IMG/VR virus record: IMGVR_UViG_3300032736_000416
Span: 1-51,016 of that record
Length of the DNA stretch: 51,016 nt
Reading direction: 5' to 3' (one strand)
Source of the DNA: a virus
Below are positions 10,887-48,608 of this stretch, piece by piece (position 1 is the stretch's first letter; each line of letters starts with the position of its first letter). The position numbers and the translations under genes were made by a program. The notes under the pieces were generated by a model. The model was not told where the DNA came from. It did no database searches and saw only the letters and a program-made list of their open reading frames with translations.

Positions 10887-11079
10887 TTTCTACGATAGTT
10901 TTTAGGAGAGATTTGATTTCAGAAAGTTCTTCCTTCAAGTTATTTATGTCCTCAACAGCATTGGTTACTAGTTTGGATAAATTTTTTTTAGGAGGCGATT
11001 CTGTATTAACAATAGCACCGGTACGAGAATCTCTGTAGAGATTTTCATGCCCAGAAACTTTAATGTATGAGTTATTCAT
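10870..11079 (-). CDS. Small conserved virion-associated protein, 69 aa
   Basis: A 69-residue protein starting MNNSYIKVSGHENLYRDSRTGAIVN and ending in a predicted coiled coil (LVTNAVEDINNLKEELSEIK). The N-terminal pattern VxGHxNLxRDxxTGAIxN is familiar from short proteins in T4-like phages of cyanobacteria and pelagic bacteria, of unknown function. Its ATG overlaps the TAA of the 2,704-residue gene (TAATG), and its end overlaps the next gene's start by 17 bp, so the three are translationally linked. Confidence 0.75.
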   Translation of the reverse strand: MNNSYIKVSGHENLYRDSRTGAIVNTESPPKKNLSKLVTNAVEDINNLKEELSEIKSLLKTIVENGIRS

Positions 11080-24100: not shown

Positions 24101-27100
24101 AATAATATGAATCAGTTAGTATTTGATTCAAATTACTCAATTTACCACGATCAGAATTGTAATACCCAATATTATCTGAATATGATCTGACATCAGGAAT
24201 AAAGTTGGTGTTTAGCACAGAAATTACGTCTGCCGTTTTATTTTTTACAACACCTTTAATTTGTTTAGAATTATCAAATACCCCAACTATTTCTTGAATA
24301 CGTAATATATTACTTCCTGGTCTCCAACCATTTTTTGAAACTTTTGCAGAAAAAATAATATTACCATTTGAATCAGTTTGAACAATTTTTTCTCCAATAG
24401 AAAAAGCATTATCTTCGTGATTTTTTAGTAATAATATAATGCTAGAACTATACGAAGATATTAATGTAAAATCTTTGTGGTAATTATAACCACTATCTAC
24501 AAATTTAAGTGATTTAATTATACCAATATTATCTGACTTGAAATAAATTTTAACGTCAGATTCGATAATTTTTACAGTGGGTTTGTACGTATATCCTCTA
24601 CCACCATTTAGTACTTTTACCCCAGCAATCTCGCCATCTACAATAATTAAAGAAAATTTTGCTCCGACACCATCGCCGTCAGTTACAACTACTTTTGGTT
24701 TGGAATAATTTTTTCCAGAAACTAAAACATTAACATAAGATATATTTTTTTGGTCAAAATTATATCCCACATCTAAAACGGATTCATACTGCGAAGCAAT
24801 GTCAACCCCATCAATAATAGGAACTCTCTTATATTCTCTTCCGCCATTTTCTATAGTAATCGTATTTATTTTTCCTATAGATGTTTGTGAAGTGGTTGTA
24901 AATGTAATGTCACCAACACCATCAAAACTAGGATATTCAGATACTTTATAAACAAACGAAGTGTCTGTGGTATAGTAAACAGTTTTTTGACCTTGTAGGG
25001 GATCATTTTTTATGGCAATAAAACCTTCTCCCGCAATATCGTTATTTCCTTTATCAAAATAATAATAATTTAAGAATGGAAAATTAGATGCTTTTTTCCC
25101 TCTAGAGTTTATAATATTTGTTGATACAATAAAATCTCCTTCAACAATTAACTCACCATAAACAATATAATCATCATTAATTTCATCCGAAATATCATAA
25201 GACGTATACACTACGGGAGTATAACCAAATTTTACAGCAATAGAAGACCCCGCCTGTCCTGATTCTACAACGGTAGACTTAATTTCAATAGGGACAATAT
25301 TATATCCTAAGCTAGGAGAAAAACTTAAATATGTTCCTCCCATTGAAAAATGACTTGTATCAAATCTATATTTGTAATGCTTAGTTACATCTATAATAGG
25401 AGTTGACACGAAAGTTTCGTCTAATTCAGATAGAGAAAACTGCAACGCAAATTTGGGATCTTCTACTTCATTTATAGTAACTAATTTTTGTGGTGTGCTA
25501 TTATCGTAAAATACGTTTGTTTTTTTTATACTACTTACGTTTGTTGTAGATAATCCATAGTTGTAAACTACATCTAAATCATGAATGGTTTCGTTGTATG
25601 TAAAAATATATGGACTAGCAAAAGTATTTCCTGATGGCTGAAAGCCATAATTAAATCTATATTTTGCATTATAAAAAGTAACATCTTCTCCATCATAATG
25701 ATCAACAATTTTGGATGAATTTACTCCCCTAACAACAGTGATGTTATTGTTTTGGGTGTTGATATTTGAAACTCGTACAATTTCATCACCAAGCAATAGC
25801 TCATCATCTATAGAAACATTAATAATAGAACTAAGACGTAAAATTGTATTTTGATTAGAGAAACCAACATGATCAACAACCAAAATTAATCTTTGAGTAG
25901 CAACGCTGGACGATAATCTACCCAAAGAAACATCAGAAACTGTTAAAACATCTCCTCTTTTATAATTTGAACCTTTAGTGGTAATAGTTACTCCAACAAC
26001 TCTTCCTCGACCAGAACCATTGATGTTAGAAACTTGAATCGTGGCCCTAGCATTATTAGGATTATTTGGAGCACCAACGTTAGTGCGTATTGTAGTTGAA
26101 TCTCTAAAAATTAATTCTACGTTATTATACGACCCAGAAGCATAATTTTCTCCCCCATTTAACAAATCAAATCTACCAATACCACGATCAGAAAGTTTGA
26201 CATTTAATGTTGGTGAATTTAATTTGAGTTTTTGATATATTCTTTTTCTTACAAAATATTTTGTTTCTGTGTCAGCATCCGATGGAATAATATCAATAGT
26301 AACTTTATCATCTACTTTTAAATTATGATTTGCACTTAATCTAGCAATAGCTATTTTATCATCAATATTGTTTATTTGTAAATTTTTACTCAATGAAGTC
26401 AACGATAAAATGCCAATGCCGATAGTATCAGAAAGATTACTGCTTCGTAACGTATAATTATTGTCAAGTAAAAATTCTCCTGAAGTTACACGCACTCTTA
26501 ATGTATTTTGTCTAGTGATAGTTTCTAAAACTATTCCCGTACCAAAAATGTTTGCATTGTTATCAATAAGTGATATTACAGAGTCTTTTGTGTAAGATGC
26601 ATTATTATTCAGTAATATGTTTAAAACTTCTGTATTGGAAGAAACATTACCTGTAAAGTTAAATGATCCAATAACATTTCGTAAAATAATTTGTGATTTG
26701 TTAATCACATCACCTAATATTTCTCCATATGCTCCAGATGATGGTTGAGTTAGTATATCACCAGCAAAAAGATAGCAAGGTAAAATAGTATTGATTTCTA
26801 TTGGCTTTATATTAGCAGATTCAATATAATTAATTTGTTCTCCTAAAATAGAAGAAACTACAGCTGAAGCATCTTTACCTTCTGTGTTTTGGTTATTAAT
26901 TCTTACTGTAGACCCAACTTGAAAATTATTTGTTGACTTTTCAATGGTATAATTTTTTACTTGTCCACTGCTCACTTCTTCAACAGTAATTATAGAATCA
27001 ACCCCATTTCGATCTAAATTAGCAGTTCTCAATCTCTTAACAAACTCTGGTAAATTATCTTGCGAAAGAAGAGAATTGTAATTAGAATCTACTGGAAGAG

Positions 27101-29687
27101 AATAATAATTTTTACCTAAAATATATGGGAATACTGGAACATCAAAAGCATTTACAGTAATAAAGTAAGCATACACACCAGTTGGATAATCTGGAGTTAC
27201 ACAAAATCTACCATTATTTTCATCTAGATGTGTTTTTCCTGTTCCTGATCTGGCAGACCAAGTATAATCATCAACAAATGTTCCTAAAGGATACTGATTT
27301 GTGGCAGGTCCTGATTGTCTAGTATTATTAATATTATATCCAGAAAGTAATCTCACAATAGAAGAATCTTTATTCAATGGATCTTGATACCCATACGGAC
27401 CATAAATCGGATTGCCATCATAAGCATAACCCAAAATAAGTGAATGAGTTCTTGGAGTAATTTGAGTTAAATTTTCTGTTATATTATCTCTTATCAGTCC
27501 ACGCAATCTTCTTGGATTGCCGACATAACCATAACCATATTCTTTGTTGGTTTTGATTAAATACCCATTGCTATCATCTAATGTAGTTTGATTTTTTGTA
27601 TATCTATTTTTAAACCATTTTTTAATTTCTACTTCTGCTCTAGCTTCAGACCCACGAGCATCTTCAATAATTTCAATGAATACATTTCCTTCTGTATAAA
27701 ATCTTCCAGGATTCAATTGTTTAAATTCTGTAACTTGGCCATTGTCTGAAATTACTGCTTCGTACTCAGCAAAATTACCTTTGCCCACCCGATCAATAAT
27801 TCTAACCTGAGGAGGTGATGAATAATATTCACCTGCATTTATTACTATAATACGACTAATTTCTCCTTGCGTGACAATAGCTCTTGCTTGGGCATTTCTA
27901 CCTGCAGTAATTGTAACTGTGGGAGTTTGCTGATAAATTTCATTTTCTGTAATAGAAATAGATTCAAGAATTTCTCCACTTAGCTTAGCTGTTGATTTAC
28001 CAGATAATCCGTTTATAAGTACGAAAGGTGGTCTTTTATATCCGGCACCTCCATATGTAACTGTAGTGTTTGTAATATTACCATATAAAATAAATTCTTC
28101 ATCTTTGCAACCATATGCAGGAACACCATTTACGAGTATACCAACACCACTACTCGGAGTTTCGTAAATCTCTGTGGTCGTGATTGGAACTTTTCTAATT
28201 AATTTTAGTGATTTTTGATCTTGGGGAATATTACTAACTGAAGAATTTAAAAATTGATGTGATGGGAAACTAGACGAACAAATATAATAGTACTGCTCAT
28301 CCTCATAAATTGCAGATACATCAGCATTTAAATTACTAATGGCATTATTAATTTGCGTATTCTGAAATACATTTGGTCTAATATTGTTAAGATTCAATAA
28401 CCATCTTACTTTACTCTCTACCCGATTAAAAATAACTGGATCACTAGTTTCAAAACCAGGATCAGAAATTTCAATCTTTTCTGATACTTCAGAATAAGGA
28501 GATGATGTTACTGGAGTTAAATTATAAAGAACCCCGAGAATAATAAATTTACAATTAAATTTTTCTACGATAGAAAAACTGTATACTTCACTTCCGGCAG
28601 AATGAGATAGAGGATTGTTACTTCTAGTATTAATTATGAATTGATTTACATTTTTATCTTTAACAGTAATAACCTCTCCATTAATATAAACCGAGTTTGT
28701 GTCATTCCATCCTAAAGTGGACTCTACATCAATTCTTCCTTCTGTACCAACGAAAGCAGATAAATTTTTTGACAGTTTTGTTTTTGCCGGTACAGTAAAC
28801 CGATTATTTACTGTGCTTGGATTTAGTACAATCTCGTAAATATCATTTTTGTAAAAGATAACATTATCTACAACAGCAGAAGCGTAGTTTGAATTTTCTT
28901 GTTGTTCAATTTTTTCACCAATTAAACTCTGTAAATTACCTTCGATAACTTTAACTTTTAATGAATATTTGGTAATCCAATCAGAAGTTGAAGCTTTAAT
29001 AGTATTATCTTTTGGATAAAATACTTCGGGGATCTCGTTTTCATCTTTAGAGATAATTGAATTAAATATAAACTTTATAGAAGCATCTGATCCCTTTGCT
29101 CTGTAAAATTTTTGAATATTTTTAATTAAAGTTCTTTTATCTACTTCTTTTTTTAAATACTTTTCTGGAAATACTCCTAGATATTCTGCTTCAAAATTTT
29201 TGATGAGAGCATATAGAAACAGATTACTTACGTTAAGAACCTGATCTCCGCTAAAATGATCTGCAGCATTTGTAGTAACAAAAGAAGATTTTTCATACAA
29301 ATCTCCTAATGTGGTATTTCCGCTTACTCCTCTAGAAACTTCTAAAAATTGAGATGCCGTTTTTGATTTATAGAAACAAATCTCTTCGCCAATACGAATG
29401 TACCCGTTTGCTTCCGGAAATGAAGAAGTATCTCCTACTTCAATTGTATTATTAGTTGAATTAAGATCAGATGATAAAACTGTATATTCTGTTAAAAGAT
29501 TTTTTTCGTAAAAATTAATATCTCTATATTTTTCAATATTATTAATTACATCTAAAGTCTGACCTCTAGCTTCTAATTGTTCGTAATACTTTTCAATAAA
29601 CTTTGAAAAGTTCTCATACTCTGTAGATATAAATTCAGGAATTTGAGTATTAATTAACGGTGAAATTTTCTTAATGTTAGATGCCAT
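21123..29687 (-). CDS. Giant baseplate protein in gp7 position, with YHYH-like domain
   Basis: A 2,854-residue protein located between gp6 and gp8, where T4 has gp7. The N-terminus (PEFISTEYENFSKFIEKYYE) is typical of large baseplate proteins of T4-like cyanophages. Residues about 740-840 form a YHYH-like domain: GYAYDGNPIYGPYGY, later YPLGTFVDDY and DENNGRFCVTPDYPTG. At least six copies of a GxxYxxPxV module occur near residues 551, 620, 1619, 1662, 1699 and 2559. A second module ending VxRGV recurs near 119, 1319 and 2834, the last at the very C-terminus. A wedge role as gp7 is inferred from position; length is nearly three times T4 gp7 (about 1,030 residues). Confidence 0.75.
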   Translation of the reverse strand: MASNIKKISPLINTQIPEFISTEYENFSKFIEKYYEQLEARGQTLDVINNIEKYRDINFYEKNLLTEYTVLSSDLNSTNNTIEVGDTSSFPEANGYIRIGEEICFYKSKTASQFLEVSRGVSGNTTLGDLYEKSSFVTTNAADHFSGDQVLNVSNLFLYALIKNFEAEYLGVFPEKYLKKEVDKRTLIKNIQKFYRAKGSDASIKFIFNSIISKDENEIPEVFYPKDNTIKASTSDWITKYSLKVKVIEGNLQSLIGEKIEQQENSNYASAVVDNVIFYKNDIYEIVLNPSTVNNRFTVPAKTKLSKNLSAFVGTEGRIDVESTLGWNDTNSVYINGEVITVKDKNVNQFIINTRSNNPLSHSAGSEVYSFSIVEKFNCKFIILGVLYNLTPVTSSPYSEVSEKIEISDPGFETSDPVIFNRVESKVRWLLNLNNIRPNVFQNTQINNAISNLNADVSAIYEDEQYYYICSSSFPSHQFLNSSVSNIPQDQKSLKLIRKVPITTTEIYETPSSGVGILVNGVPAYGCKDEEFILYGNITNTTVTYGGAGYKRPPFVLINGLSGKSTAKLSGEILESISITENEIYQQTPTVTITAGRNAQARAIVTQGEISRIIVINAGEYYSSPPQVRIIDRVGKGNFAEYEAVISDNGQVTEFKQLNPGRFYTEGNVFIEIIEDARGSEARAEVEIKKWFKNRYTKNQTTLDDSNGYLIKTNKEYGYGYVGNPRRLRGLIRDNITENLTQITPRTHSLILGYAYDGNPIYGPYGYQDPLNKDSSIVRLLSGYNINNTRQSGPATNQYPLGTFVDDYTWSARSGTGKTHLDENNGRFCVTPDYPTGVYAYFITVNAFDVPVFPYILGKNYYSLPVDSNYNSLLSQDNLPEFVKRLRTANLDRNGVDSIITVEEVSSGQVKNYTIEKSTNNFQVGSTVRINNQNTEGKDASAVVSSILGEQINYIESANIKPIEINTILPCYLFAGDILTQPSSGAYGEILGDVINKSQIILRNVIGSFNFTGNVSSNTEVLNILLNNNASYTKDSVISLIDNNANIFGTGIVLETITRQNTLRVRVTSGEFLLDNNYTLRSSNLSDTIGIGILSLTSLSKNLQINNIDDKIAIARLSANHNLKVDDKVTIDIIPSDADTETKYFVRKRIYQKLKLNSPTLNVKLSDRGIGRFDLLNGGENYASGSYNNVELIFRDSTTIRTNVGAPNNPNNARATIQVSNINGSGRGRVVGVTITTKGSNYKRGDVLTVSDVSLGRLSSSVATQRLILVVDHVGFSNQNTILRLSSIINVSIDDELLLGDEIVRVSNINTQNNNITVVRGVNSSKIVDHYDGEDVTFYNAKYRFNYGFQPSGNTFASPYIFTYNETIHDLDVVYNYGLSTTNVSSIKKTNVFYDNSTPQKLVTINEVEDPKFALQFSLSELDETFVSTPIIDVTKHYKYRFDTSHFSMGGTYLSFSPSLGYNIVPIEIKSTVVESGQAGSSIAVKFGYTPVVYTSYDISDEINDDYIVYGELIVEGDFIVSTNIINSRGKKASNFPFLNYYYFDKGNNDIAGEGFIAIKNDPLQGQKTVYYTTDTSFVYKVSEYPSFDGVGDITFTTTSQTSIGKINTITIENGGREYKRVPIIDGVDIASQYESVLDVGYNFDQKNISYVNVLVSGKNYSKPKVVVTDGDGVGAKFSLIIVDGEIAGVKVLNGGRGYTYKPTVKIIESDVKIYFKSDNIGIIKSLKFVDSGYNYHKDFTLISSYSSSIILLLKNHEDNAFSIGEKIVQTDSNGNIIFSAKVSKNGWRPGSNILRIQEIVGVFDNSKQIKGVVKNKTADVISVLNTNFIPDVRSYSDNIGYYNSDRGKLSNLNQILTDSYYYQDYSYGIKSKTPIDLWRDLFKETIHPAGFQLFGEVLIESDGSISMPSEQKKEYSENIVYINLRSENVEVKVNKRYVTESILNYNNTNVERGIGSACIDQRTNSETIARELILATPFNGEYDSFDGQRIGTKTFTLLEKTTRLPYAPYNNQQLIITLDGVIQEPGVSYNVVGNQIIFDEAPIGQKIIDGQVTPSQKFYCRSIKFKKDELNERYLKKLKPIDNEFDGVTRTFDLYYEDNSIVKTDFSETLLVFLNAVLQKSKDFENTQYGNSYHIIRSQNPEITDKIEFTDPPINHADLYTPEVFELDNREKCFIYSIGNYKRLTIDQFLIPLRGNGSFNIINEVTKKITKVEDPRYALVFVDGVLQILGESYEIIGSSITFNRPLNYYISEVGTEIYPDVSILFFYGRDLDQQINIFDFEPDTFYNRMYLTLEGTNIFDTIKDLSIFPKDQMLSCQTVWVYQSTNLIGELKEIKAISDNKVVLTVFNSSNVNKISATNLSILINKKEVKDIQGEYTIELDNEKDSDGTKLLTTGINTPIWVFNTEYGKKLEERKRYKKISNIIPGDFIKLDGENEYREVFTAPDQVYTKTYLNKEQSNNEIYASIQCSNYNGIIRGEGLTVTAEIFNGKVVNVIWNKKDLEEYLRTNVLLQPTAYQYFTNPILHFIPKDGNGGEAKAEVVICNGQVLDVVITNPGDGYTQSPEVVVARKYSIIKKNSRTIVGDLRMLQIIPKLKLDYSVITEINIFEDGINIVYIFDILSFAFKDIDLYLTRILTPDALNLKAEKTSDTQYTVTTPSYGIINSIVSSSKDITNILELHKPNVLVKYDRTIKSTIAFTGISDNLQDDYFNSYGQNILGNRLQCFENSKFTDFGYSEVSKFTIEEFNMIYPESIIEDFDEPNTVKITSNLKERFNLGYSSIQNFGAFLDISVNSTDNIIYISNTNVFPNQGKLLLGDEIISYEQKLSDRFISVTRGVDRTRAKSHEAGSYLRSI

Positions 29688-31500: not shown

Positions 31501-31893
31501 TTATCGGGTTCTCTCTAAAAAGAAGTTAATTGATCTTGGGAGGTCTTCTCTACCAACAACTTCAAAAACTAATTCTACATCAAAACCATTGTCATCAAAA
31601 TTTGGATTTGTTGATAGTGAAAGAACTCTAATTCTTGGCTCATAGGTACGTAATGTATTTTGAATTTCGGTATTTACTAACGAAGCAGTACCAAAATCTA
31701 ACATCTCAAATAACAAGTCACTTAATGAAGATCCGATTTGAGGAGCAAAAAGTCGTTCTCCTCGATTTGTTAATAACAAATTAATAATTGCCTGCTTAAT
31801 AGCTGCCTCATCCTTTACAGTTGTTAAATCACCTGTAACTGGATGAGGCTTGAACGTAATATTCAGATCTTTGAAAGTCTGAAAAGTAGGCAT
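31501..31893 (-). CDS. 25: Baseplate wedge protein gp25-like
   Basis: A 130-residue protein with the gp25/GPW pattern: VKDEAAIKQAIINLLLTNRG, then ERLFAPQIGSSLSDLLFE and LRTYEPRIRV. Length matches T4 gp25 (132). It belongs to the baseplate wedge core with gp6. A late promoter lies about 16 bp before its ATG. No strong Shine-Dalgarno is seen before the start. Confidence 0.9.
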   Translation of the reverse strand: MPTFQTFKDLNITFKPHPVTGDLTTVKDEAAIKQAIINLLLTNRGERLFAPQIGSSLSDLLFEMLDFGTASLVNTEIQNTLRTYEPRIRVLSLSTNPNFDDNGFDVELVFEVVGREDLPRSINFFLERTR

Positions 31894-33793: not shown

Positions 33794-33827
33794 AGTGTAA
33801 AGAATGGGTGGGGGCTGGTGTGCCCCC
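33794..33827 (-). promoter_or_regulatory. Hairpin/-10 cassette for the gene at 33512
   Basis: Minus strand GGGGGC-ACACCA-GCCCCC hairpin (33827-33810), then 10 bp, then TACACT (33799-33794) as -10. Same plan as the other intergenic cassettes, but without the AACAAGTCAACC leader. Confidence 0.5.
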
Positions 33828-33843
33828 TGAGTGTAACTAAGCC

Positions 33844-34038
33844 TCAGCCAGAGATGACATGGAAGCACTCCATTCCTCTGTAGCTGGTGTAGTAGAACTC
33901 CTGACGAGTCTTACACCATAGAACATACACATCAGACGACATCTTGTAGTCAGCTATAACGTACTCATTGGAGTAGTCAGTAACAACGGTGCCCAGCATC
34001 TGACGGATCTGGTTGTAGTCAATGGTGAGGGTAGCCAT
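33844..34038 (-). CDS. Unknown small protein, 64 aa
   Basis: A 64-residue protein (begins MATLTIDYNQIRQMLG, contains SSDVYVLWCKTRQEFYYTSY). No domain recognised. The start codon is in the CCGATG context shared by several genes of this island. It is driven by the TTGACA-type cassette at 34065-34099. Confidence 0.65.
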   Translation of the reverse strand: MATLTIDYNQIRQMLGTVVTDYSNEYVIADYKMSSDVYVLWCKTRQEFYYTSYRGMECFHVISG

Positions 34039-34064
34039 CGGTCGGGTTGCTCGGTTGCTTGCTA

Positions 34065-34099
34065 ATTGTAGACGGTAGGGGGGCTGGTGTCAACCCCCC
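34065..34099 (-). promoter_or_regulatory. Hairpin-embedded sigma-70 promoter, copy 1
   Basis: Minus strand TTGACA (34093-34088), 17 bp, TACAAT (34070-34065). The -35 lies inside a G6/C6 hairpin (34099-34078) whose 9-bp stem closes on an ACAC loop. Terminator for the upstream gene and promoter for the next therefore share the same bases. Confidence 0.75.
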
Positions 34100-34106
34100 G
34101 CTCGGA

Positions 34107-34403
34107 TCAGACCAGGCTGTTCCGATTCTGTGCCCACTGGCTGAGCCTACGGGTGGAGGCTTTGGAGAACACCCGATCCTGCTGAGTGATGCTGCCATCG
34201 GCGTGGGTGACGGCGTGGCGGTTGGCTGCTTTGGCACACTGCTGGAGGGCAGCCCTGCCCTGGCTGTTGCTCTGGGCAAGGTTGAGCAGCAGCGTGGCAC
34301 GGTGTCCGCCGATCACCGTAGGGCTCTTGATGAGCAGGGCGGCGAGGCGCTCGGCGTCACCGATGAAAGCCTGAAAGCGGGTGGAGGGGATGACGGGAAG
34401 CAT
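34107..34403 (-). CDS. Unknown helical protein, 98 aa, GC-rich gene
   Basis: A 98-residue Ala/Leu/Arg-rich protein (AERLAALLIKSPTVIGGH, RAALQQCAKAANRHAV). No family recognised. Codons are much richer in G and C than in the virion genes, like its neighbours up to 36.2 kb, which suggests a foreign source such as a high-GC picocyanobacterium. Start ATG in CCGATG context. A promoter lies at 34452-34479. Confidence 0.6.
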   Translation of the reverse strand: MLPVIPSTRFQAFIGDAERLAALLIKSPTVIGGHRATLLLNLAQSNSQGRAALQQCAKAANRHAVTHADGSITQQDRVFSKASTRRLSQWAQNRNSLV

Positions 34404-34451
34404 CGGTCTCGGGGGCGAGGGGTTGAAGAGGTTTCCCTCTCGCTTGAATCT

Positions 34452-34479
34452 ATCCTAGAGCATCGGGTGCCCCTGTGGA
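34452..34479 (-). promoter_or_regulatory. Promoter TCCACA-16-TAGGAT in a repeated element
   Basis: Minus strand TCCACA (34479-34474), 16 bp, TAGGAT (34457-34452). The element CCTCCACAGGGGCACC recurs at 40254-40278 with TATAAT, so it is a second type of mobile-looking promoter unit. Confidence 0.5.
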
Positions 34480-34497
34480 GGGTCTGGAGTGAGAATC

Positions 34498-34521
34498 GGG
34501 ACAGTTGCCCAACTGGCACAC
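34498..34521. repeat. Dispersed palindrome, variant copy
   Basis: GTGTGCCAGTTGGGCAACTGTCCC: the arms CAGTTG and CAACTG are perfect. It lies in the 245-bp non-coding stretch 34404-34650, in which I see no convincing gene. Confidence 0.5.
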
Positions 34522-34652
34522 GGTTTCGGGTAGGGTCGGGCGCCATGCTAGATTGAAGGTAGAACCTATGGCTGGTGGGTATGGGTTGGCAGGTTCGGTG
34601 GCGAGCGTTGGCGTCAGCAGGGCGACCTTGCCCCTCGTTCGATTGTCCCCTA

Positions 34653-34686
34653 ATTGTAGACGGGATGGGGGCTGGTGTCAACCCCC
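34653..34686 (-). promoter_or_regulatory. Hairpin-embedded sigma-70 promoter, copy 2
   Basis: TTGACA (34681-34676), 17 bp, TACAAT (34658-34653), inside a G5/C5 hairpin (34686-34667). No clear gene starts in the next 245 bp, so it may yield a small RNA or a long leader to the gene at 34107-34403. Confidence 0.65.
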
Positions 34687-34694
34687 AGTTGGAC

Positions 34695-34844
34695 TCAGTA
34701 GCGTTGCCGATCCTGGCGAGCATCAGCCCAGCCATCACGCTCCCAGCGTCGGCGGTCGTAAGCGTCGGCATCCATCAGGTCGTCGTGCTCCCTATTCTCG
34801 GGCAGCCAGGGAGTGTAATTGATCGGTGGCAGGGTGCTGGTCAT
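34695..34844 (-). CDS. Unknown small charged protein, 49 aa
   Basis: A 49-residue protein (begins MTSTLPPINYTPWLPENR, then many Asp/Arg: DAYDRRRWERDGWADARQD). The start is chosen as the ATG following the shared leader AACAAGTCAACC and GAGACC. No domain recognised. GC-rich. Confidence 0.55.
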   Translation of the reverse strand: MTSTLPPINYTPWLPENREHDDLMDADAYDRRRWERDGWADARQDRQRY

Positions 34845-34871
34845 GGTCTCGGTTGCTTGGTTGACTTGTTC

Positions 34872-34913
34872 AGTATAGAGGCTCAGCGGGGCATCTGGCA
34901 TCTGCCGGGTGCC
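34872..34913 (-). promoter_or_regulatory. Hairpin/-10 cassette for the gene at 34695
   Basis: Minus strand hairpin with GGCA/TGCC arms (34913-34897), then TATACT (34877-34872), then leader AACAAGTCAACC. The stop codon of the upstream membrane peptide gene lies between hairpin and -10. Confidence 0.5.
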
Positions 34914-35050
34914 ACTTGGTTGATTGCCACACACTGGGCGAGCTGGCGAACCTTGAGCTGCTCTGCTGCTTGCTGGGCGCTGGTGAGCACTTGGGCGCCA
35001 GCGATAAGGGTCAGACCAGCCAGCAGAGCGTAGAGGGAGAGGCGAATCAT
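34883..35050 (-). CDS. Small membrane or secreted peptide, 55 aa
   Basis: A 55-residue protein with a signal-like start: MIRLSLYALLAGLTLIAGAQ, that is Arg then about 15 hydrophobic residues. Two cysteines (41 and 51) follow. Its ATG overlaps the TGA of the gene before it (ATGA), implying coupling. Its last codons run through the hairpin of the next cassette. Probably acts at the host membrane; function unknown. Confidence 0.6.
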   Translation of the reverse strand: MIRLSLYALLAGLTLIAGAQVLTSAQQAAEQLKVRQLAQCVAINQVAPGRCQMPR

Positions 35051-35208
35051 CGGGCGAACTGGGCGAGGCTGCTGGGGGCGATGTGAGAAGGTGAGCCACA
35101 GCTCAGGTAGAACTCCACCATACGCTCAGCCTCTGCCATTGTGGAGAACCACTGGGAGCGCCATTCTTGGCTGCTGTAGGGGGTCTGGTAGCGGACTTCG
35201 ATTCTCAT
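35047..35208 (-). CDS. Unknown small protein, 53 aa
   Basis: A 53-residue protein (MRIEVRYQTPYSSQEWRSQW, then FSTMAEAERMVEFYL). The look is of a small alpha/beta fold. Start ATG is in the CCGATG-like context (ACCGATG nearby in the set). It is the first gene after the copy at 35233-35266 and is coupled to the membrane peptide gene. Confidence 0.6.
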   Translation of the reverse strand: MRIEVRYQTPYSSQEWRSQWFSTMAEAERMVEFYLSCGSPSHIAPSSLAQFAR

Positions 35209-35232
35209 CGGTTGGGTTGGTTGCTTGTTTGT

Positions 35233-35266
35233 ATTGTAGACGGGATGGGGGCTGGTGTCAACCCCC
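35233..35266 (-). promoter_or_regulatory. Hairpin-embedded sigma-70 promoter, copy 3
   Basis: TTGACA (35261-35256), 17 bp, TACAAT (35238-35233); hairpin 35266-35247. Nearly identical to the copies at 34065 and 34653, including the GTC before the -10. It drives the two-gene unit 35208-34883. Confidence 0.75.
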
Positions 35267-35273
35267 TCTAGGC

Positions 35274-35432
35274 TCAGTTGCTGTTGAGCCAGTCTGCCAG
35301 TGCCTCCTGGTAGTCTGCCTCAGTATGGAAGACTCGGGCGCCGATGGTTCTGGGGTAGGTTGCCTTCGGGGCTGGTGCCTTGCTAGGCTCTTTGCCCTGG
35401 CTCAGGATCTGGGCGACGTAGGGGTTGCTCAT
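35274..35432 (-). CDS. Unknown small protein, 52 aa
   Basis: A 52-residue protein (MSNPYVAQILSQGKEPSKAP, then ARVFHTEADYQEALADWL). No domain recognised. Start in CCGATG context; single-gene unit with its own cassette upstream and the copy-3 hairpin right after its stop. Confidence 0.6.
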   Translation of the reverse strand: MSNPYVAQILSQGKEPSKAPAPKATYPRTIGARVFHTEADYQEALADWLNSN

Positions 35433-35456
35433 CGGTCGTTTGTGGTTGACTTGTTA

Positions 35457-35490
35457 AGTATAGAGCCTGTATGGGGGCTGGTGTGCCCCC
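35457..35490 (-). promoter_or_regulatory. Hairpin/-10 cassette for the gene at 35274
   Basis: Hairpin GGGGGC/GCCCCC (35490-35473), 10 bp, TATACT (35462-35457), then AACAAGTCAACC. No good TTGACA at 17 bp; GGCACA at 19 bp is the nearest. Confidence 0.55.
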
Positions 35491-35492
35491 AT

Positions 35493-35516
35493 TGTGCCAC
35501 TTGTCAGACTGTCACA
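35493..35516. repeat. Dispersed palindrome containing the Gp88 gene stop
   Basis: Degenerate copy of the 24-bp palindrome (TGTGCCACTT, then ACTGTCACA). The TGA of the Gp88-like gene lies within it. Confidence 0.6.
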
Positions 35517-36232
35517 GGCTGCTTGATTTTTGCCTTTTGTACCTTACGGTTTGCTCGGGCTGCTTTGCCCCAGTTGCTGCCTGCTGGCTGTGTACCATGT
35601 ACCAACAGAGCGAAAGGTCCATCCTCAAAGCAGGATTGATCCTGGATGTCTACCTTCAGCCCAGCAGCGTTAGCGTCAGCTTCAGACATGAAGACCTTAG
35701 CATAACGGGGGAACACACCTTCGTCGATTAAGTAGTCGAACTTGCCACCATATGAAGCGGTGAAGTATACATTCTCGGGCATGGTGAGACCTACAAACAG
35801 TGGCAAGTTCTTCGAGTAGAAGTAGAACTTCAGGTCAGGATTAACCTGAGCAACCACAATCCACGCCTGTAAATAGGCGGGAGAGAAGAAGTCTCCGCTT
35901 TCGTGAATACGGACGAGTTTAGTATTCTTTTTGCGAGCCTTTTGGAGTTCGATGTTAATGAGGTTATCACAATTGCCAGACTTGAGAGCATCAACAATTG
36001 CTTTAAAGTTAGCTTGACGGTTGAGGTAGACATTATCATATTGCACCTCAGAAGATGCAGCGAAGCAACGGAATTGGGTGTGCTGACCATCAACAATAGA
36101 ACGCTTGCCGTTAGCATCAGCAACCGCCATGGAGAAGCACTGTAAAGCTCCAGGGCAGGTGCTGCCTGCTGGCAGGTTGAAGATCACGGTTGCTTTGTTG
36201 AGCTTAGCGTTGCCGTGTGAGAAGTGAAGCAT
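35504..36232 (-). CDS. Gp88-like phage protein
   Basis: A 242-residue protein. It matches the pattern of the mycobacteriophage-type 'gene product 88' family: LPAGSTCPGALQCFS near residue 20, a further CF motif, VRIHESGDFFSPAYLQAW near residue 106, and FYFYSKNLPLF. The family is spread over many phages but, to my knowledge, has no proven function; the conserved cysteines and the ESGDFF motif hint at a metal-binding or enzyme site. Start at 36232 in the ACCGATG context, after the island's usual cassette. GC content is intermediate. Confidence 0.75.
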   Translation of the reverse strand: MLHFSHGNAKLNKATVIFNLPAGSTCPGALQCFSMAVADANGKRSIVDGQHTQFRCFAASSEVQYDNVYLNRQANFKAIVDALKSGNCDNLINIELQKARKKNTKLVRIHESGDFFSPAYLQAWIVVAQVNPDLKFYFYSKNLPLFVGLTMPENVYFTASYGGKFDYLIDEGVFPRYAKVFMSEADANAAGLKVDIQDQSCFEDGPFALLVHGTQPAGSNWGKAARANRKVQKAKIKQPVTV

Positions 36233-36261
36233 CGGTCCGGTGTCGTTTGGTTGACTTGTTA

Positions 36262-36294
36262 AGTATGGCACCCCTTAGCCTGGTTCGGGGTGCC
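36262..36294 (-). promoter_or_regulatory. Hairpin/-10 cassette for the Gp88-like gene
   Basis: Perfect 8-bp hairpin GGCACCCC/GGGGTGCC (36294-36267), then CATACT (36267-36262), then AACAAGTCAACC. Hairpin and -10 share one base. Confidence 0.6.
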
Positions 36295-36304
36295 TAGTGG
36301 ACAG

Positions 36305-36320
36305 TGTGCCAACTGGCACA
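36305..36320. repeat. Dispersed palindrome, short copy
   Basis: TGTGCCAACTGGCACA, a near-perfect 16-bp palindrome, 4 bp after the stop of the gene at 36324. Confidence 0.6.
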
Positions 36321-36323
36321 GGC

Positions 36324-36515
36324 TCAGAACTCTACACTCCAATCGGTGTCATTCTGTATATTAACCCAGAAGAAGTTCTTCCCATTGATAGAACGAAGGA
36401 AGAAGCGATTGCCCTTGAATTGTTCTATTAAACACTCTGGCTGGTTGTTCATCAAGTTAGCGAATCTGTTCTTCGCTTTCTTACTCTTTGGGGTGACAAA
36501 AGCGAGGTCGTCCAT
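36324..36515 (-). CDS. Unknown small basic protein, 63 aa
   Basis: A 63-residue protein (MDDLAFVTPKSKKAKNRFAN, then RFFLRSINGKNFFWVNI). Start is the first ATG after the leader. Lys-rich N-terminus and aromatic C-terminus; no domain recognised. Single-gene unit between two cassettes. Confidence 0.6.
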   Translation of the reverse strand: MDDLAFVTPKSKKAKNRFANLMNNQPECLIEQFKGNRFFLRSINGKNFFWVNIQNDTDWSVEF

Positions 36516-36540
36516 TGTTTTCTGTTTGGTTGACTTGTTA

Positions 36541-36563
36541 AGTATAGGGGACAAGATGCCCCC
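36541..36563 (-). promoter_or_regulatory. Hairpin/-10 cassette for the gene at 36324
   Basis: GGGG/CCCC hairpin (36563-36547) directly joined to TATACT (36546-36541), then AACAAGTCAACC. Confidence 0.55.
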
Positions 36564-36575
36564 TGTGTGTGTCAG

Positions 36576-36599
36576 TGTGCCACTTCCCAAAGTGTCACA
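36576..36599. repeat. Dispersed 24-bp palindrome, full copy
   Basis: Minus strand arms TGTGACACTT and AAGTGGCACA around TGGG; one mismatch between the arms. It carries the TGA stop of the gene at 36595-36843. Confidence 0.75.
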
Positions 36600-36843
36600 G
36601 CATAGACACCATTCTCAGAATTGTGGTAACCTGCACGGGTGTTTGGTAAGGTAGAACGTCCTCCAGCATATTGCTGTTTGGACGTATCACTGCCACCTCG
36701 AAAGTGTCCTCGCCAAGTATACCGTACAACCCCGAATCTTCGGGACCGGCGACTACACTTACCGTCCAACAGTTGTTGAATGATTGCTGGGCAATTGTGG
36801 CACCAGTGATAACATGATCACGAAAGTTCAGGGAAGAAAACAT
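36595..36843 (-). CDS. Unknown protein, 82 aa
   Basis: An 82-residue protein (MFSSLNFRDHVITGATIAQQ, then WTVSVVAGPEDSGLYG). Beta-rich look, no family recognised. Its stop codon is inside the palindrome at 36576-36599. Preceded by the usual cassette. Confidence 0.6.
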   Translation of the reverse strand: MFSSLNFRDHVITGATIAQQSFNNCWTVSVVAGPEDSGLYGILGEDTFEVAVIRPNSNMLEDVLPYQTPVQVTTILRMVSML

Positions 36844-36866
36844 AATCTTGTTTGGTTGACTTGTTA

Positions 36867-36898
36867 ATTATGACACCTCCCAAGCCACAGTGGGGGTG
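36867..36898 (-). promoter_or_regulatory. Hairpin/-10 cassette for the gene at 36595
   Basis: Imperfect hairpin CACCCCC/GGGAGGTG (36898-36874), then CATAAT (36872-36867), then AACAAGTCAACC. Confidence 0.5.
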
Positions 36899-36903
36899 AT
36901 AGT

Positions 36904-36926
36904 GGACAGTTCAGAAAGTGGCACAC
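36904..36926. repeat. Dispersed palindrome, degenerate copy
   Basis: Minus strand TGTGCCACTT then AACTGTCCA; same position relative to the hairpin as in the other cassettes. Confidence 0.5.
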
Positions 36927-36947
36927 AACCCCTTGACAACCTCCACA

Positions 36948-36977
36948 ATACCCTCTAAACTATAATCTAGAGGGTAT
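36948..36977 (-). terminator. Perfect 10-bp inverted repeat
   Basis: ATACCCTCTA and TAGAGGGTAT enclose a 10-nt loop, 4 bp after the stop of the 41-residue gene. No T-run follows, so it could be an operator or RNA stabiliser instead of a terminator. Confidence 0.5.
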
Positions 36978-36980
36978 AAT

Positions 36981-37106
36981 CTACTCTTGAGTAGTATAAT
37001 CTATATCTGTATTCATACTATAGTCATCATATTCTATATCTTTATTCTCTTTATCTTCTTCTAATTCATTCTTTATATAATCTTGAAAGGTTAATGTATT
37101 AGACAT
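36981..37106 (-). CDS. Small acidic protein, 41 aa
   Basis: A 41-residue very acidic peptide (MSNTLTFQDYIKNELEEDKE, ending in DYSMNTDIDYTTQE). Many Asp/Glu could mimic DNA, as in some phage anti-host proteins, but that is speculation. No Shine-Dalgarno is seen. Flanked by a 10-bp inverted repeat downstream and a 19-bp hairpin upstream. Confidence 0.5.
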   Translation of the reverse strand: MSNTLTFQDYIKNELEEDKENKDIEYDDYSMNTDIDYTTQE

Positions 37107-37168
37107 AAGATTAAGGTTTAACATTTAATATTTGAATTTAATGAATTATCTTAAAATTGAAAAAAGTA

Positions 37169-37217
37169 AAAAAGTGAAAAAACTTAATTTTTGAGTTTTT
37201 AAGTTTTTTCACTTTTT
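37169..37217. terminator. 19-bp A/T hairpin
   Basis: AAAAAGTGAAAAAACTTAA pairs perfectly with its complement across an 11-nt loop; with T-runs on either strand it can end transcription both ways. It follows the small membrane protein gene (ends 37236). The leader DNA up to 37235 also holds AAATCCCAAAA, shared with the leader at 39.4 kb. Confidence 0.65.
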
Positions 37218-37235
37218 GAGATTTTGGGATTTCTA

Positions 37236-37364
37236 CTATTTCCTCAAAGGTGAATTAAAGTAACGGGTGAAGCATAGCACCAAAATGATGCCAGTGGAGA
37301 TGACACCGACCAGTCCTAGAACTGTCACAGCGTCACCTTGAACGCTAAGTGTGTTAACGGGCAT
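37236..37364 (-). CDS. Single-pass membrane peptide, 42 aa
   Basis: A 42-residue peptide with one clear membrane span (VTVLGLVGVISTGIILVLCF, residues 13-32) followed by Arg/Lys. Begins 2 bp after the stop of the 78-residue gene, so the two form an operon. Small phage membrane peptides may affect superinfection or lysis; no family recognised. Confidence 0.6.
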   Translation of the reverse strand: MPVNTLSVQGDAVTVLGLVGVISTGIILVLCFTRYFNSPLRK

Positions 37365-37366
37365 GA

Positions 37367-37603
37367 TTAGTAAGTGCTAAGAACGTGGCGATAATTGAGA
37401 GAAACTACATTCCATTCAGCATAATCTGTAACCTCTTCAACTAGAACATCAGCAATTTCATCATCATCACTTGGATTGAGAACTTCAACCTCAAAGACAT
37501 TACCCAACACAGAATCTACAACCCACTGTTGTTGCTCTGGGGTGAAATCTTCCTCATCAAAATCAAACAGAACTTCGGTAACTTGGACGGTGAGAGTAGT
37601 CAT
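37367..37603 (-). CDS. Acidic protein, 78 aa
   Basis: A 78-residue acidic protein (MTTLTVQVTEVLFDFDEEDF, later NPSDDDEIADVLVEEV). Start is the ATG following leader AACAAGTCAACC. Pattern FDFDxEDFTPEQQQ is seen in short phage proteins of unknown role. In an operon with the membrane peptide. Confidence 0.65.
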   Translation of the reverse strand: MTTLTVQVTEVLFDFDEEDFTPEQQQWVVDSVLGNVFEVEVLNPSDDDEIADVLVEEVTDYAEWNVVSLNYRHVLSTY

Positions 37604-37626
37604 GATGGTGTTGGTGGTTGACTTGT

Positions 37627-37968
37627 TTAGTATAGAGGGTGAATGGGGCCTGCTGTGGCCCCACTGTGCCAGTTCCCAAAGTGGCTCACAGGTACACAAT
37701 CATTCACAAGTTCCACAGCAAGTTGGTTGAATCCACCAATATGCCAATTATACTCACCCATTGGAGTTTCTGATAGTTTCCAATCATAAATTGTGGCAAC
37801 AGTACCATCTGAGAATTTAATAGTCCATTCCACATTAACTTTATCACCTTTCAATGTAGTTGGTTCCCCAAATACATTCACCAGTTCATCATAGGTGGTC
37901 TTGATGTATCCCCGAAGGGAACTTCCACTAGCGAAAGTAAAAGGAACAATCTCAAATTGGATAGTCAT
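37627..37968 (-). CDS. Conserved phage protein with read-through C-terminus, 113 aa
   Basis: Start at 37968 (MTIQFEIVPFTFASGSSLRG). The core TTYDELVNVFGEP, then WTIKFSDGTVATIYDWK and NWHIGG is a pattern found widely in phage proteins of unknown function. After LAVELV the frame continues through the palindrome and the hairpin (reading VSHFGNWHSGATAGPI) and stops at the -10 of the next cassette, so about 25 C-terminal residues are encoded by regulatory DNA. The leader is identical to that of the gene at 37367. Confidence 0.75.
   Translation of the reverse strand: MTIQFEIVPFTFASGSSLRGYIKTTYDELVNVFGEPTTLKGDKVNVEWTIKFSDGTVATIYDWKLSETPMGEYNWHIGGFNQLAVELVNDCVPVSHFGNWHSGATAGPIHPLY
37629..37663 (-). 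promoter_or_regulatory. Hairpin/-10 cassette for the gene at 37367
   Basis: Perfect hairpin TGGGGCC/GGCCCCA (37663-37644), 9 bp, TATACT (37634-37629), then AACAAGTCAACC. Confidence 0.6.
37665..37690. repeat. Dispersed palindrome, 26-bp copy
   Basis: Minus strand TGTGAGCCACTTTGGG then AACTGGCACA; directly before the hairpin of the cassette. Confidence 0.7.
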
Positions 37969-37993
37969 GATGGTGTCGGTGGTTGACTTGTTT

Positions 37994-38029
37994 AGTATAG
38001 AGGGTGAATGGGGGCTACTGTGAGCCCCC
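37994..38029 (-). promoter_or_regulatory. Hairpin/-10 cassette for the gene at 37627
   Basis: Hairpin GGGGGCT/AGCCCCC (38029-38010), 10 bp, TATACT (37999-37994), then the same leader as at 37.6 kb. Confidence 0.6.
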
Positions 38030-38052
38030 TGTGCCACTTACTCAAATGGCAC
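38030..38052. repeat. Dispersed palindrome with stop codon
   Basis: GTGCCATTTGAGTAAGTGGC on the minus strand; the TGA of the gene at 38042-38218 is inside it. Confidence 0.6.
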
Positions 38053-38218
38053 TGGTGCCCTTGCTTACCCACAGGGCAAGCCTCATAGTACCAGCCTTGG
38101 CGACAGCATCAGGCTTCCTACCAGCTGCCACAGCAGCAGTCCGAAGCTCTTTACGTCGGGCATCAGCACCACAAGTCATCACATCACGGGCGGATTGAAG
38201 CAGTTGCTGTTGAGTCAT
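38042..38218 (-). CDS. Unknown basic helical protein, 58 aa
   Basis: A 58-residue Ala/Arg-rich protein (MTQQQLLQSARDVMTCGADA, then RRKELRTAAVAAGRKPDAVA). GAGG lies 6 bp before the ATG. GC-rich. No domain recognised. Its stop is part of the palindrome at 38030-38052. Confidence 0.6.
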   Translation of the reverse strand: MTQQQLLQSARDVMTCGADARRKELRTAAVAAGRKPDAVAKAGTMRLALWVSKGTSAI

Positions 38219-38242
38219 GATCCTCTTTGAATAGGGTTTGTT

Positions 38243-38272
38243 CGGGGTGTCTTCCCCGATGAACCTATTATG
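38243..38272 (-). promoter_or_regulatory. CATAAT promoter with AGGTTCATCGGGG leader
   Basis: Minus strand CATAAT (38272-38267), then AGGTTCATCGGGG leading into a CGGGG/CCCCG hairpin (38258-38243). The same -10/leader combination recurs at 47838-47843. The rest of 38273-38450 holds a palindrome copy and no convincing gene. Confidence 0.45.
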
Positions 38273-38302
38273 GCCCCCAGCTCAGCCACCTGCCATGCCC
38301 AC

Positions 38303-38325
38303 TGTGCCACCTCCCAAACTGTCCC
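38303..38325. repeat. Dispersed palindrome, degenerate copy
   Basis: TGTGCCACCTCCCAAACTGT on the plus strand; arms partly matched. Confidence 0.5.
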
Positions 38326-38450
38326 GATCTGTCCCCACCAGCTTGCCGAGGTGCTATACTATGGGAAACCAAGAGAGGGCTGGGGTAAGCCTAATGATTA
38401 AATGATCGCCACGCCCCCTGCAACAAAATAATTATTACAATATATTAAAA

Positions 38451-39362: not shown

Positions 39363-39495
39363 GGTTAAAGGTTAAAATTAACTTTTTGAAGTTTTGAGAT
39401 TTCTCAAAAACCTTAAAATTCAAGTTTTTGACTTTTTTGGTTTTTTGACTTTTTTGACTTTTTGGGATTTCTCGGTTTTTGAGATTTCTCAACTT
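39363..39495 (-). promoter_or_regulatory. A-rich low-complexity leader
   Basis: The untranslated leader holds four GTCAAAAA-type repeats and two GAGAAATC motifs. Similar text occurs at 33.2 and 37.2 kb. A 46-codon Lys-rich frame starting at 39498 spans it, but its composition follows the repeats, so I do not call a gene. Confidence 0.4.
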
Positions 39496-39504
39496 CATGA
39501 ATAC

Positions 39505-39533
39505 ATCATAGCAGATATTCGGGGGAATGTCAA
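39505..39533 (-). promoter_or_regulatory. Strong sigma-70 promoter TTGACA-17-TATGAT
   Basis: Minus strand TTGACA (39533-39528), 17 bp, TATGAT (39510-39505). One mismatch to the -10 consensus. Confidence 0.75.
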
Positions 39534-39614
39534 GGGGGGCTGCCAGTCCCTGAAGTGGCACAGTAGTCCTTGACAGGGCTCCCAGCACACCTCGCAGGTT
39601 TTGTCAAGCCCCTT

Positions 39615-39638: not shown

Positions 39639-39699
39639 TAATCGCTTGACTTTCGGGTGGTGGCGGGCTTAGACAACAACGACAGCGTACATTTCCATG

Positions 39700-39799
39700 C
39701 TTTCAGCAACACTTAACGAAACCTTATACAAATCTTAACCATATTCTTTCAGCAACACTTAACGAAACCTTATACAAATCTTAACCATATTCTTTCAGC
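39700..39799. repeat. Two tandem 46-bp repeats with phased octamers
   Basis: Exact 46-bp copies at 39700-39745 and 39746-39791, then 8 bp of a third. Each holds CTTAACGA, CTTATACA and CTTAACCA spaced by 3 bp, that is every 11 bp (39712, 39723, 39734 and 39758, 39769, 39780). This fits the cyanobacterial Pho-box layout, or an iteron. Within 39355-39879 I see no gene. Confidence 0.85.
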
Positions 39800-39806
39800 C
39801 ATTAAG

Positions 39807-39826
39807 TTTTCCACAGGTTTTCCACA
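39807..39826. promoter_or_regulatory. Two DnaA-box-like sites TTTTCCACA
   Basis: TTTTCCACA at 39807-39815 and 39818-39826, each followed by GG, 11 bp apart, next to the 46-bp repeats. TTTTCCACA is a known cyanobacterial DnaA-box form. A candidate replication or regulatory site. Confidence 0.5.
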
Positions 39827-40247: not shown

Positions 40248-40275
40248 ATTATAAGGCATCTGGTGCCCCTGTGGA
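40248..40275 (-). promoter_or_regulatory. Promoter TCCACA-16-TATAAT
   Basis: TCCACA (40275-40270), 16 bp, TATAAT (40253-40248), embedded in hairpin-forming CCCCTCCACAGGGG. Same element as at 34452-34479. Confidence 0.6.
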
Positions 40276-40283
40276 GGGGTGTC

Positions 40284-40305
40284 TGTGCCGGTTTCTCAAG
40301 TGTCC
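40284..40305. repeat. Dispersed palindrome, degenerate copy
   Basis: TGTGCCGGTTTCTCAAGTGT on the plus strand, immediately after the stop of the RNA ligase gene. Confidence 0.45.
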
Positions 40306-40839
40306 TCAACCTTTATGATTTTTATCAAATGGTGCCTTGAAATAGTGATTGGCAGCAGAATGGTAAATCATCACACCTTCAGGGTTCATAAAACCTTTAG
40401 AAGCAAGAGAACCATTATTAGAAAGATGATCCATTACATCACTAATTACTTCAGTATCAAACTCTCCAGAATAAAGAAGTGGAACAACATAGCAACAAGC
40501 AGGAAGGTTTTCTTCATTCCAGATGCTTACATTAAACAAAGAGAACCTTTTCTCACCTTTGAGTAGATCATACCCTCGTTGAATACCACTACCCCACCAT
40601 TCTCCATGATGACGACCAGCACCAAGTTTCATCAGTTCATTCTTGTTTCCAGTTACCCAACGATGAAATCCAAAGTTATCAGCATCCTCACTCAACCAGC
40701 GATTACGACTACCAATAAACATATCACCATCGTCAGTGATGTAGATAATACCATTGGTTCCGTCAATCTTTTCAGTGACAATACACTCCTTATGGAGACG
40801 AGGAATTTTAGGAAAGGGAACAAATTCAGGCAATTTCAT
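40306..40839 (-). CDS. RNA ligase family protein
   Basis: A 177-residue nucleotidyltransferase-type ligase. Motif I is EKIDGTNG with the predicted AMP-accepting Lys24; GEWWGSGIQRGY (79-90) and LFNVSIW follow; motif IV is PEGVMIYH (Glu154 region) and motif V YFKAPFDK (Lys168). It is shorter than T4 Rnl1/Rnl2 and lacks a C-terminal domain, as in several phage RNA ligases. It would seal RNA breaks, for example in tRNAs cut by host defences; this role is inferred. An ATG at 40890 would add 17 residues. Palindrome and promoter cassette follow. Confidence 0.8.
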   Translation of the reverse strand: MKLPEFVPFPKIPRLHKECIVTEKIDGTNGIIYITDDGDMFIGSRNRWLSEDADNFGFHRWVTGNKNELMKLGAGRHHGEWWGSGIQRGYDLLKGEKRFSLFNVSIWNEENLPACCYVVPLLYSGEFDTEVISDVMDHLSNNGSLASKGFMNPEGVMIYHSAANHYFKAPFDKNHKG

Positions 40840-47837: not shown

Positions 47838-47866
47838 AATATAGGGCATCCTGTGGCAACGGGCAA
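47838..47866 (-). promoter_or_regulatory. Promoter TTGCCC-17-TATATT
   Basis: TTGCCC (47866-47861), 17 bp, TATATT (47843-47838), then AGGTTCATCGGGG, the leader seen at 38.26 kb. Confidence 0.55.
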
Positions 47867-47871
47867 GTGGT

Positions 47872-48087
47872 CTACCCCTCTTGCCGAACTGGCACACCGT
47901 TAATCGGATTTGCCTTGCCCTCAAGCGATTTCACCATAAGCTTGGTAAACAGCTCCATTTTTTCGTAGTGAACTGATGCTGGATGGTCATTGATAGCATT
48001 TTTGAGAGCACATAGCTCTTCCCACTCTTCTGCTGACATGTTCATAGGTATTATTTGAATATGTTCATATCCTAACATATTTACCAT
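47872..48087 (-). CDS. Unknown protein, 71 aa
   Basis: A 71-residue protein (MVNMLGYEHIQIIPMNMSAE, then EWEELCALKNAINDH). Stops just before the promoter at 47.86 kb; DNA near its end carries a half palindrome (ACTGGCACACC). ATG at residue 4 is possible. Function unknown. Confidence 0.6.
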   Translation of the reverse strand: MVNMLGYEHIQIIPMNMSAEEWEELCALKNAINDHPASVHYEKMELFTKLMVKSLEGKANPINGVPVRQEG

Positions 48088-48333: not shown

Positions 48334-48608
48334 TACTTCATTACCTCGTAGTGTTGGGTGAGTGTGTTAATTAATTGTTGAGTTTTGTTCTTATCAAAAA
48401 GAACTTCAGCAAACGCTCCAGCATTATATCTAGACCTCTTGCCGAGTACATATAAAAACCCATATTTTAGACGATTCCAGAATCCCATGTCGGACAAGTG
48501 GACATGAAACCAAATAGAATCGTTAAAATCTGGGTCTTTGTCAAATGAGATTACAAGCTGATGATCAATCTCTCCACATTGACAAACAAAGAGTGTATTA
48601 CTTTCCAT
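48333..48608 (-). CDS. Unknown protein, 91 aa
   Basis: A 91-residue protein starting MESNTLFVCQCGEIDHQLVI with a CxC pair, then WFHVHLSDMGFWNRLKYGFL. Pattern recalls small conserved phage proteins; function unknown. Coupled to both neighbours. Confidence 0.65.
   Translation of the reverse strand: MESNTLFVCQCGEIDHQLVISFDKDPDFNDSIWFHVHLSDMGFWNRLKYGFLYVLGKRSRYNAGAFAEVLFDKNKTQQLINTLTQHYEVMK

Follow-up and report, generated by a model that had tools for sequence, protein, structure and literature searches.

Dyad-containing promoter-like units and accessory-gene cassettes in a Synechococcus phage relative and other Kyanoviridae

The viral record IMGVR_UViG_3300032736_000416 was analysed over 51,016 nucleotides (the whole stretch, hereafter the window). 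It carries on its minus strand, upstream of a gp25-type baseplate gene, an array of short repeated units that each precede a small gene. Their conserved core is a strict 24-bp dyad, TGTGNCA-N10-TGNCACA, located 29-31 bp upstream of a -10 hexamer. From the sequence comparisons described below, we consider it likely that the unit is an activator-dependent promoter bounding exchangeable accessory-gene cassettes. Promoter activity and RNA ends at the units are predictions of this explanation.

The dyad and its distance to the -10 hexamer

The window holds seven copies of the leader AACAAGTCAACC, which lie between 34859 and 37992 and all belong to the minus strand; the plus strand has no copy, and a reversed-pattern control gives no match. 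In all seven gaps the order is dyad, -10 hexamer, leader and ATG, and 29 or 30 bp separate the dyad from the -10. When the palindrome is scored on both strands with at most two mismatches, 22 dyad matches are counted in the window for 0.20 expected, an approximately hundredfold excess that none of 100 shuffles reaches. The palindrome reported in the initial annotation is therefore real and far from chance, and its description can be sharpened to a strict dyad at a fixed distance from the -10. The same annotation saw one order in at least nine gaps between 33794 and 38272. The dyad order holds in eight of them, namely the seven AACAAGTCAACC units and one at 38.3 kb with the leader GGTTCATCGGGG, and three gaps (34.09, 34.68 and 35.26 kb) are of a dyad-free type in which both a -35 and a -10 are present. 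The further copies announced near 47.8 kb come down to one degenerate unit near 47.9 kb (five mismatches, TATATT). The gaps, put at under about 80 bp, measure about 80-90 bp from dyad start to ATG, and the stop codons of upstream genes often lie within the dyad.

The fixed spacing emerges from three different selections. (i) In 68 non-redundant units picked by their leader, the right half of the dyad begins mostly at -44 +/- 1. (ii) Around 144 non-redundant dyads picked irrespective of any -10, the -10 hexamers cluster at 29-31 bp. (iii) In an IMG/VR scan with a gap of 15-45 bp allowed, the distance is 29-31 bp in 65 of 75 non-redundant cases among the matches listed. The dyad itself is equally strict: its spacer is 10 in every perfect copy (24 bp in total), although 8 to 12 (22-26 bp) was allowed, and the reversed control gives no match. 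A -35 at the matching position (offset 6-7) accompanies 22 of the 144 dyads, most units being devoid of it.

By the usual distance between a -10 and the start of transcription, the start would be placed at the G of AACAAGTC in the leader, about 12 bp downstream of the first -10 base, and the centre of the dyad near -54.5. Such a layout, in which a -35 is mostly missing, resembles that of an activator-dependent phage promoter, as in P2. A dimeric DNA-binding protein, encoded by either the phage or the host, would bind the dyad and help RNA polymerase with the host vegetative sigma factor at a -10 mostly deprived of a -35. The dyad could alternatively be the operator of a repressor: host RNA polymerase would start unaided, and the promoter would be switched off by a dyad-bound protein of the phage or the host. 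A dimer-type operator at fixed spacing would suit any regulator that contacts the polymerase, and the units with a full -35 could start unaided. However, the dyad (about -67 to -43) precedes the core promoter, a position usual for activators, and most units have no -35, so that we regard repression as unlikely.

The initial annotation took the unit for a terminator half joined to a promoter half. This division is not borne out in that form, as the invariant part is the dyad plus the -10 at fixed spacing. In the AACAAGTCAACC set, the stretch from dyad to -10 is more strongly folded than its shuffles (mean z -2.28), unlike the adjoining segments; in the window, six of the seven AACAAGTCAACC units have a clear hairpin and the seventh, at 34.9 kb, a weak one. 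The sequence and position of the stem vary (44 different positions) at constant segment length, and the units of L012 and L143 have no clear hairpin and an unchanged spacing. Among the 246 dyad promoters of a broader set, 83 have a hairpin and 16 a hairpin with a U-tract; in S-CRM01 and B23, complete terminator-like hairpins with U-tracts are accommodated within the 30 bp. Since about one third of the promoters carry a hairpin, with variable stems, and since the spacing is constant without it, we read the hairpin preferably as an optional element at the 3' end of the upstream transcript, which it would end or protect. The 30 bp would thus be fixed in length and free in content, holding nothing, a -35 or a hairpin.

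Plain terminator-plus-promoter cassettes, in which palindrome and hairpin would end one transcript and the -10 would start the next with no regulator involved, would agree with the folding scores of the AACAAGTCAACC set and with the hairpins followed by U-tracts. This explanation is nevertheless improbable. The folding excess of the dyad is small (z -0.47), for which reason the dyad was rejected as an RNA hairpin, about two thirds of the dyad promoters have no hairpin, and the distance to the -10 is the same with or without one, a constancy that independent halves do not need.

Exchange of cassettes at the units

The initial proposal that conservation concerns the gap unit rather than the gene is supported: the 145 unique units precede 69 protein families (37 singletons; median 74 aa). 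The upstream stop codons are mostly at -59, -51 and -49, i.e., within the dyad and in three different frames; the dyad would often double as the source of the stop codon for the preceding gene. Of the unit pairs that precede unrelated genes on one contig, 5.2% have near-identical spacers (>85%), as compared to 0.2% of the pairs from different contigs and families; this suggests that units are copied within a genome.

When the window and four relatives are compared, the backbone order is constant and the cassettes between units vary. The 82-aa gene behind unit 3 (Table 1) is shared with L066 and absent from L136, L061 and L068, and the gene downstream of unit 6 also varies among them. A freshwater slot, between a gene ending in NYVTA and a MEDTLW/MFDELW gene, is either empty or filled by either of two cassettes. 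The two genes are adjacent in L015, L020, L245 and S-SRM01 (NYVTAA in the latter) and the slot holds an MTKLL gene in L018; an MSHTQ gene lies ahead of MEDTLW in L024 and behind another gene in L045. The gene order is common to seven isolates of the marine phage ACG-2014f, and the differences between them are single cassettes with a unit at either end. At one junction of isolate US3, a hybrid unit agrees in its left part with the unit before cassette G of isolate C16 and in its right part with the unit after that cassette, and a similar switch in isolate US7 is located within the dyad. Pairwise breakpoints fall within the unit zones, which make up 18-20% of each locus, in 138 of 192 cases; these are overlapping counts in which a match in either isolate was accepted, and about a dozen events underlie them.

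Unit mobility, which the initial annotation had deduced as a way of adding and shuffling genes, has at the sequence level direct comparative support, since related phages gain, lose and swap genes at units in both the isolate and the freshwater comparisons. Identical genes in fixed order, which would have spoken against this proposal, are not what related phages show, although close relatives keep the order of their backbone genes. Recombination between units would add, delete or swap single cassettes, and their expression would stay intact because the same short sequence stands at every junction. That cassettes differ exactly between units would also suit a target of site-specific recombination or homing, with a secondary promoter role. 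So would an insertion next to a unit in ACG-2014f isolate US39, which carries there a gene annotated as an endonuclease (L362, 12571-13086) that the other isolates examined lack. Such a site would, however, need no fixed 30-bp distance to a -10, and the crossover points vary, lying within the dyad in one isolate and past the hairpin in another. Crossovers at different places along the unit are as expected for homologous recombination, and we consider a dedicated recombination target very improbable.

Several observations weigh against an activator-dependent promoter unit that bounds exchangeable cassettes. The Ogr/Delta protein (PF04606), rejected on this ground as the regulator, is absent from the seven records searched, in which the control was positive. 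No obvious DNA-binding protein is seen among the 18 candidate open reading frames common to S-CRM01, S-SRM01 and B23, a comparison in which the dyad-negative phage may still encode the regulator. For some clear dyads, no -10 can be recognised at the expected spot, some cassette breakpoints fall outside units, and the strongest evidence of recombination is that of a marine relative, whose leader is different. Finally, at 60-95% protein identity the upstream neighbour is equally conserved at units and elsewhere. At 25-60% identity it is conserved at 1 of 35 unit junctions versus 38% of 377 other gaps of at least 30 bp; as the gene calling was crude, we take the neighbour test as supportive and not as decisive.

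Units of the window, their setting and their distribution

The features of the window are collected in Table 1.

Table 1. Dyad units and dyad-free promoter-like elements of the window (all on the minus strand; leader positions in units 1-7 refer to AACAAGTCAACC).
Element	Span	Dyad	Dyad to -10	Hairpin or -35	-10	Leader	Gene behind
Unit 1	37981..38053	38030-38053		hairpin 38010-38029	TATACT 37994-37999	37981-37992	37627-37968, 113 aa
Unit 2	37616..37688	37665-37688		hairpin 37642-37665	TATACT 37629-37634	37616-37627	37367-37603, 78 aa
Unit 3	36854..36925	36902-36925 (4 mismatches)		hairpin 36874-36898	CATAAT 36867-36872	36854-36865	36595-36843, 82 aa
Unit 4	36528..36599	36576-36599		hairpin 36546-36564	TATACT 36541-36546	36528-36539	36324-36515, 63 aa
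Unit 5	36249..36320	36297-36320 (4 mismatches)		hairpin 36267-36294	CATACT 36262-36267	36249-36260	35504-36232, 242 aa, Pfam GP88
Unit 6	35444..35516	35493-35516		hairpin 35471-35492	TATACT 35457-35462	35444-35455	35274-35432, 52 aa
Unit 7	34859..34931	34908-34931 (4 mismatches)		weak hairpin	TATACT 34872-34877	34859-34870	34695-34844, 49 aa
Variant unit	38267..38326	38303-38326 (4 mismatches)	30 bp		CATAAT	GGTTCATCGGGG	38042-38218
Dyad with full -35	39505..39562	39539-39562 (4 mismatches)	28 bp	-35 TTGACA	TATGAT		
Degenerate unit	40248..40307	5 mismatches	30 bp		TATAAT		
Degenerate unit	47838..47896	5 mismatches	29 bp		TATATT	GGTTCATCGGGG	
Second type	35233..35261	none		TTGACA within G/C hairpin loop, 17 bp	TACAAT		
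Second type	34653..34681	none		TTGACA within G/C hairpin loop, 17 bp	TACAAT		
Second type	34065..34093	none		TTGACA within G/C hairpin loop, 17 bp	TACAAT		

Some dyads are flanked by -10 hexamers on both sides, possibly including that of unit 3. On the plus strand of the latter (36902-36961), TTGACA, 17 bp and TAAACT stand at the matching distance and could form a divergent (antisense) promoter; divergent dyad promoters are also seen in L140 and L168.

The closest DNA match of the window in the phage collection is a short piece of Synechococcus phage S-SRM01, with 79% identity and 2% of the query covered. The window has features in common with S-SRM01, S-CRM01 and B23, which are Synechococcus phages of the Kyanoviridae, and many environmental contigs contain close relatives of its gp25-type gene (31501-31893). 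In the window as in S-SRM01 and B23, the units sit upstream of gp25 within stretches of accessory genes. Two very large open frames of the minus strand, 11079-19193 (2704 aa) and 21123-29687 (2854 aa), adjoin the baseplate genes. Ahead of small genes, two A+T-rich stretches (37150-37245, able to form a long hairpin, and 39380-39500) contain the related words CTCAAAAA and AAAAAGTCAAAAA, and a direct repeat of about 45-50 bp, GGTTAAGATTTGTATAAGGTTTCGTTAAGTGTTGCTGAAAG, is found at 39690-39810.

The unit occurs in freshwater and marine Kyanoviridae, namely S-SRM01, S-CRM01, B23, Syn9, P-SSM2, P-SSM4 and ACG-2014f. The sequence TATACTNAACAAGTCAACC is present in 46 IMG/VR stretches and in one copy in the named isolate S-SRM01, and it is absent from all 84,980 prokaryote species searched. 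Perfect dyads are found in S-CRM01, B23, S-PM2, Syn9, P-SSM2 and P-SSM4 and are absent in S-RSM4, Syn1, Sf-FR1 and S-EIVl; Syn9, P-SSM2 and P-SSM4 also have dyad copies with a -10 at the same distance. In Syn9 (NC_008296), the dyads at 48558-48581 and 52996-53019 are each followed after 29 bp by the -10 TATTCT, so that starts would be predicted near 48623 and 53061. Many isolates of ACG-2014f match the unit; the seven that were examined each have 18-21 units within 16-18 kb, and their leader, ATATTCATACCAAA, is a different one.

A host origin of the unit was rejected, as the leader pattern has no match among 84,980 prokaryote species and no clear host regulon is seen. One form of the dyad has 20 matches among these species, near the estimated chance level, none of them in picocyanobacteria. 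Among 386 cyanobacterial genomes, the dyad is found in seven (one being the chosen centre) versus one for the reversed control. A rare cyanobacterial dyad site may exist. In a few filamentous cyanobacteria (L170, L182, L184, genomes G014 and G015), near-identical 24-bp dyads lie near genes of right-handed beta-helix-like or secreted proteins, and cyanobacteria may have a related transcription factor.

Relation to known phage promoters

The closest known system is that of the promoter-early stem-loops (PeSLs) of T4-like phages, said to have been described by Arbiol in 2010 and Comeau in 2014 as composites of a promoter and a stem-loop that lie between small genes and mark exchange points. Both are repeated, joined elements found between small genes in the hyperplastic regions of T4-like myoviruses and linked to accessory-gene exchange; the units of the present work have this location and, by the isolate comparison, are points of gene exchange. 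They differ from PeSLs in that a 24-bp dyad is rigidly spaced from the -10, that the -35 is usually missing, and that the stem-loop is optional and mostly without a U-tract. The new element is thus the rigidly spaced, operator-like dyad. In the studied region of cyanophage S-PM2, few PeSL-like elements were seen and the mechanism was thought unlikely there (PMC4503421). Nothing on the palindrome was found in the cyanophage literature searched; it may have been recognised earlier, e.g., in the Syn9 transcriptome or in PeSL work.

Three other systems share part of this design. The late promoters of P2 have no -35, and their Ogr activator site is centred near -55. That site is also a palindrome upstream of the promoter, TGT-N12-ACA (PMC3931495), but the dyad of the units is longer, has another sequence that does not conform to this pattern, and precedes small accessory genes. 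In cluster K mycobacteriophages, the start-associated sequences (SAS) and their extended form (ESAS) combine an inverted repeat and a putative promoter before unrelated small genes, and upstream stop codons can fall in the repeat (PMC3203893, PMC11373665). These likenesses stand beside differences in sequence, phage group and layout: the SAS, GGGATAGGAGCCC, has 13 bp and adjoins the start codon within a few bp and the ESAS repeats have 17 bp and a variable spacer, whereas the leader AACAAGTCAACC lies 20-30 nt before the ATG.

The middle promoters of T4 are a third parallel, an activator site (the MotA box) taking the place of the -35 and the -10 being kept. The MotA box is nearer to the -10 than the present dyad and does not form a long palindrome. 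Cyanomyoviruses are devoid of motA and asiA, and the control of their early and middle transcription without MotA and AsiA has been described as unclear (PMC2984593). We tentatively suggest that a class of activator-dependent promoters, with a 24-bp operator at 30 bp from the -10, could run accessory genes in cyanomyoviruses in replacement of the MotA type and at the same time be a hot spot of shuffling. The operator shared by Syn9 and P-SSM2, with its fixed geometry, lends itself to a comparison with transcriptomes of infected cells. Through the units, abundant phages would have a concrete way to trade small genes, most of them uncharacterised, as cassettes ready for use.

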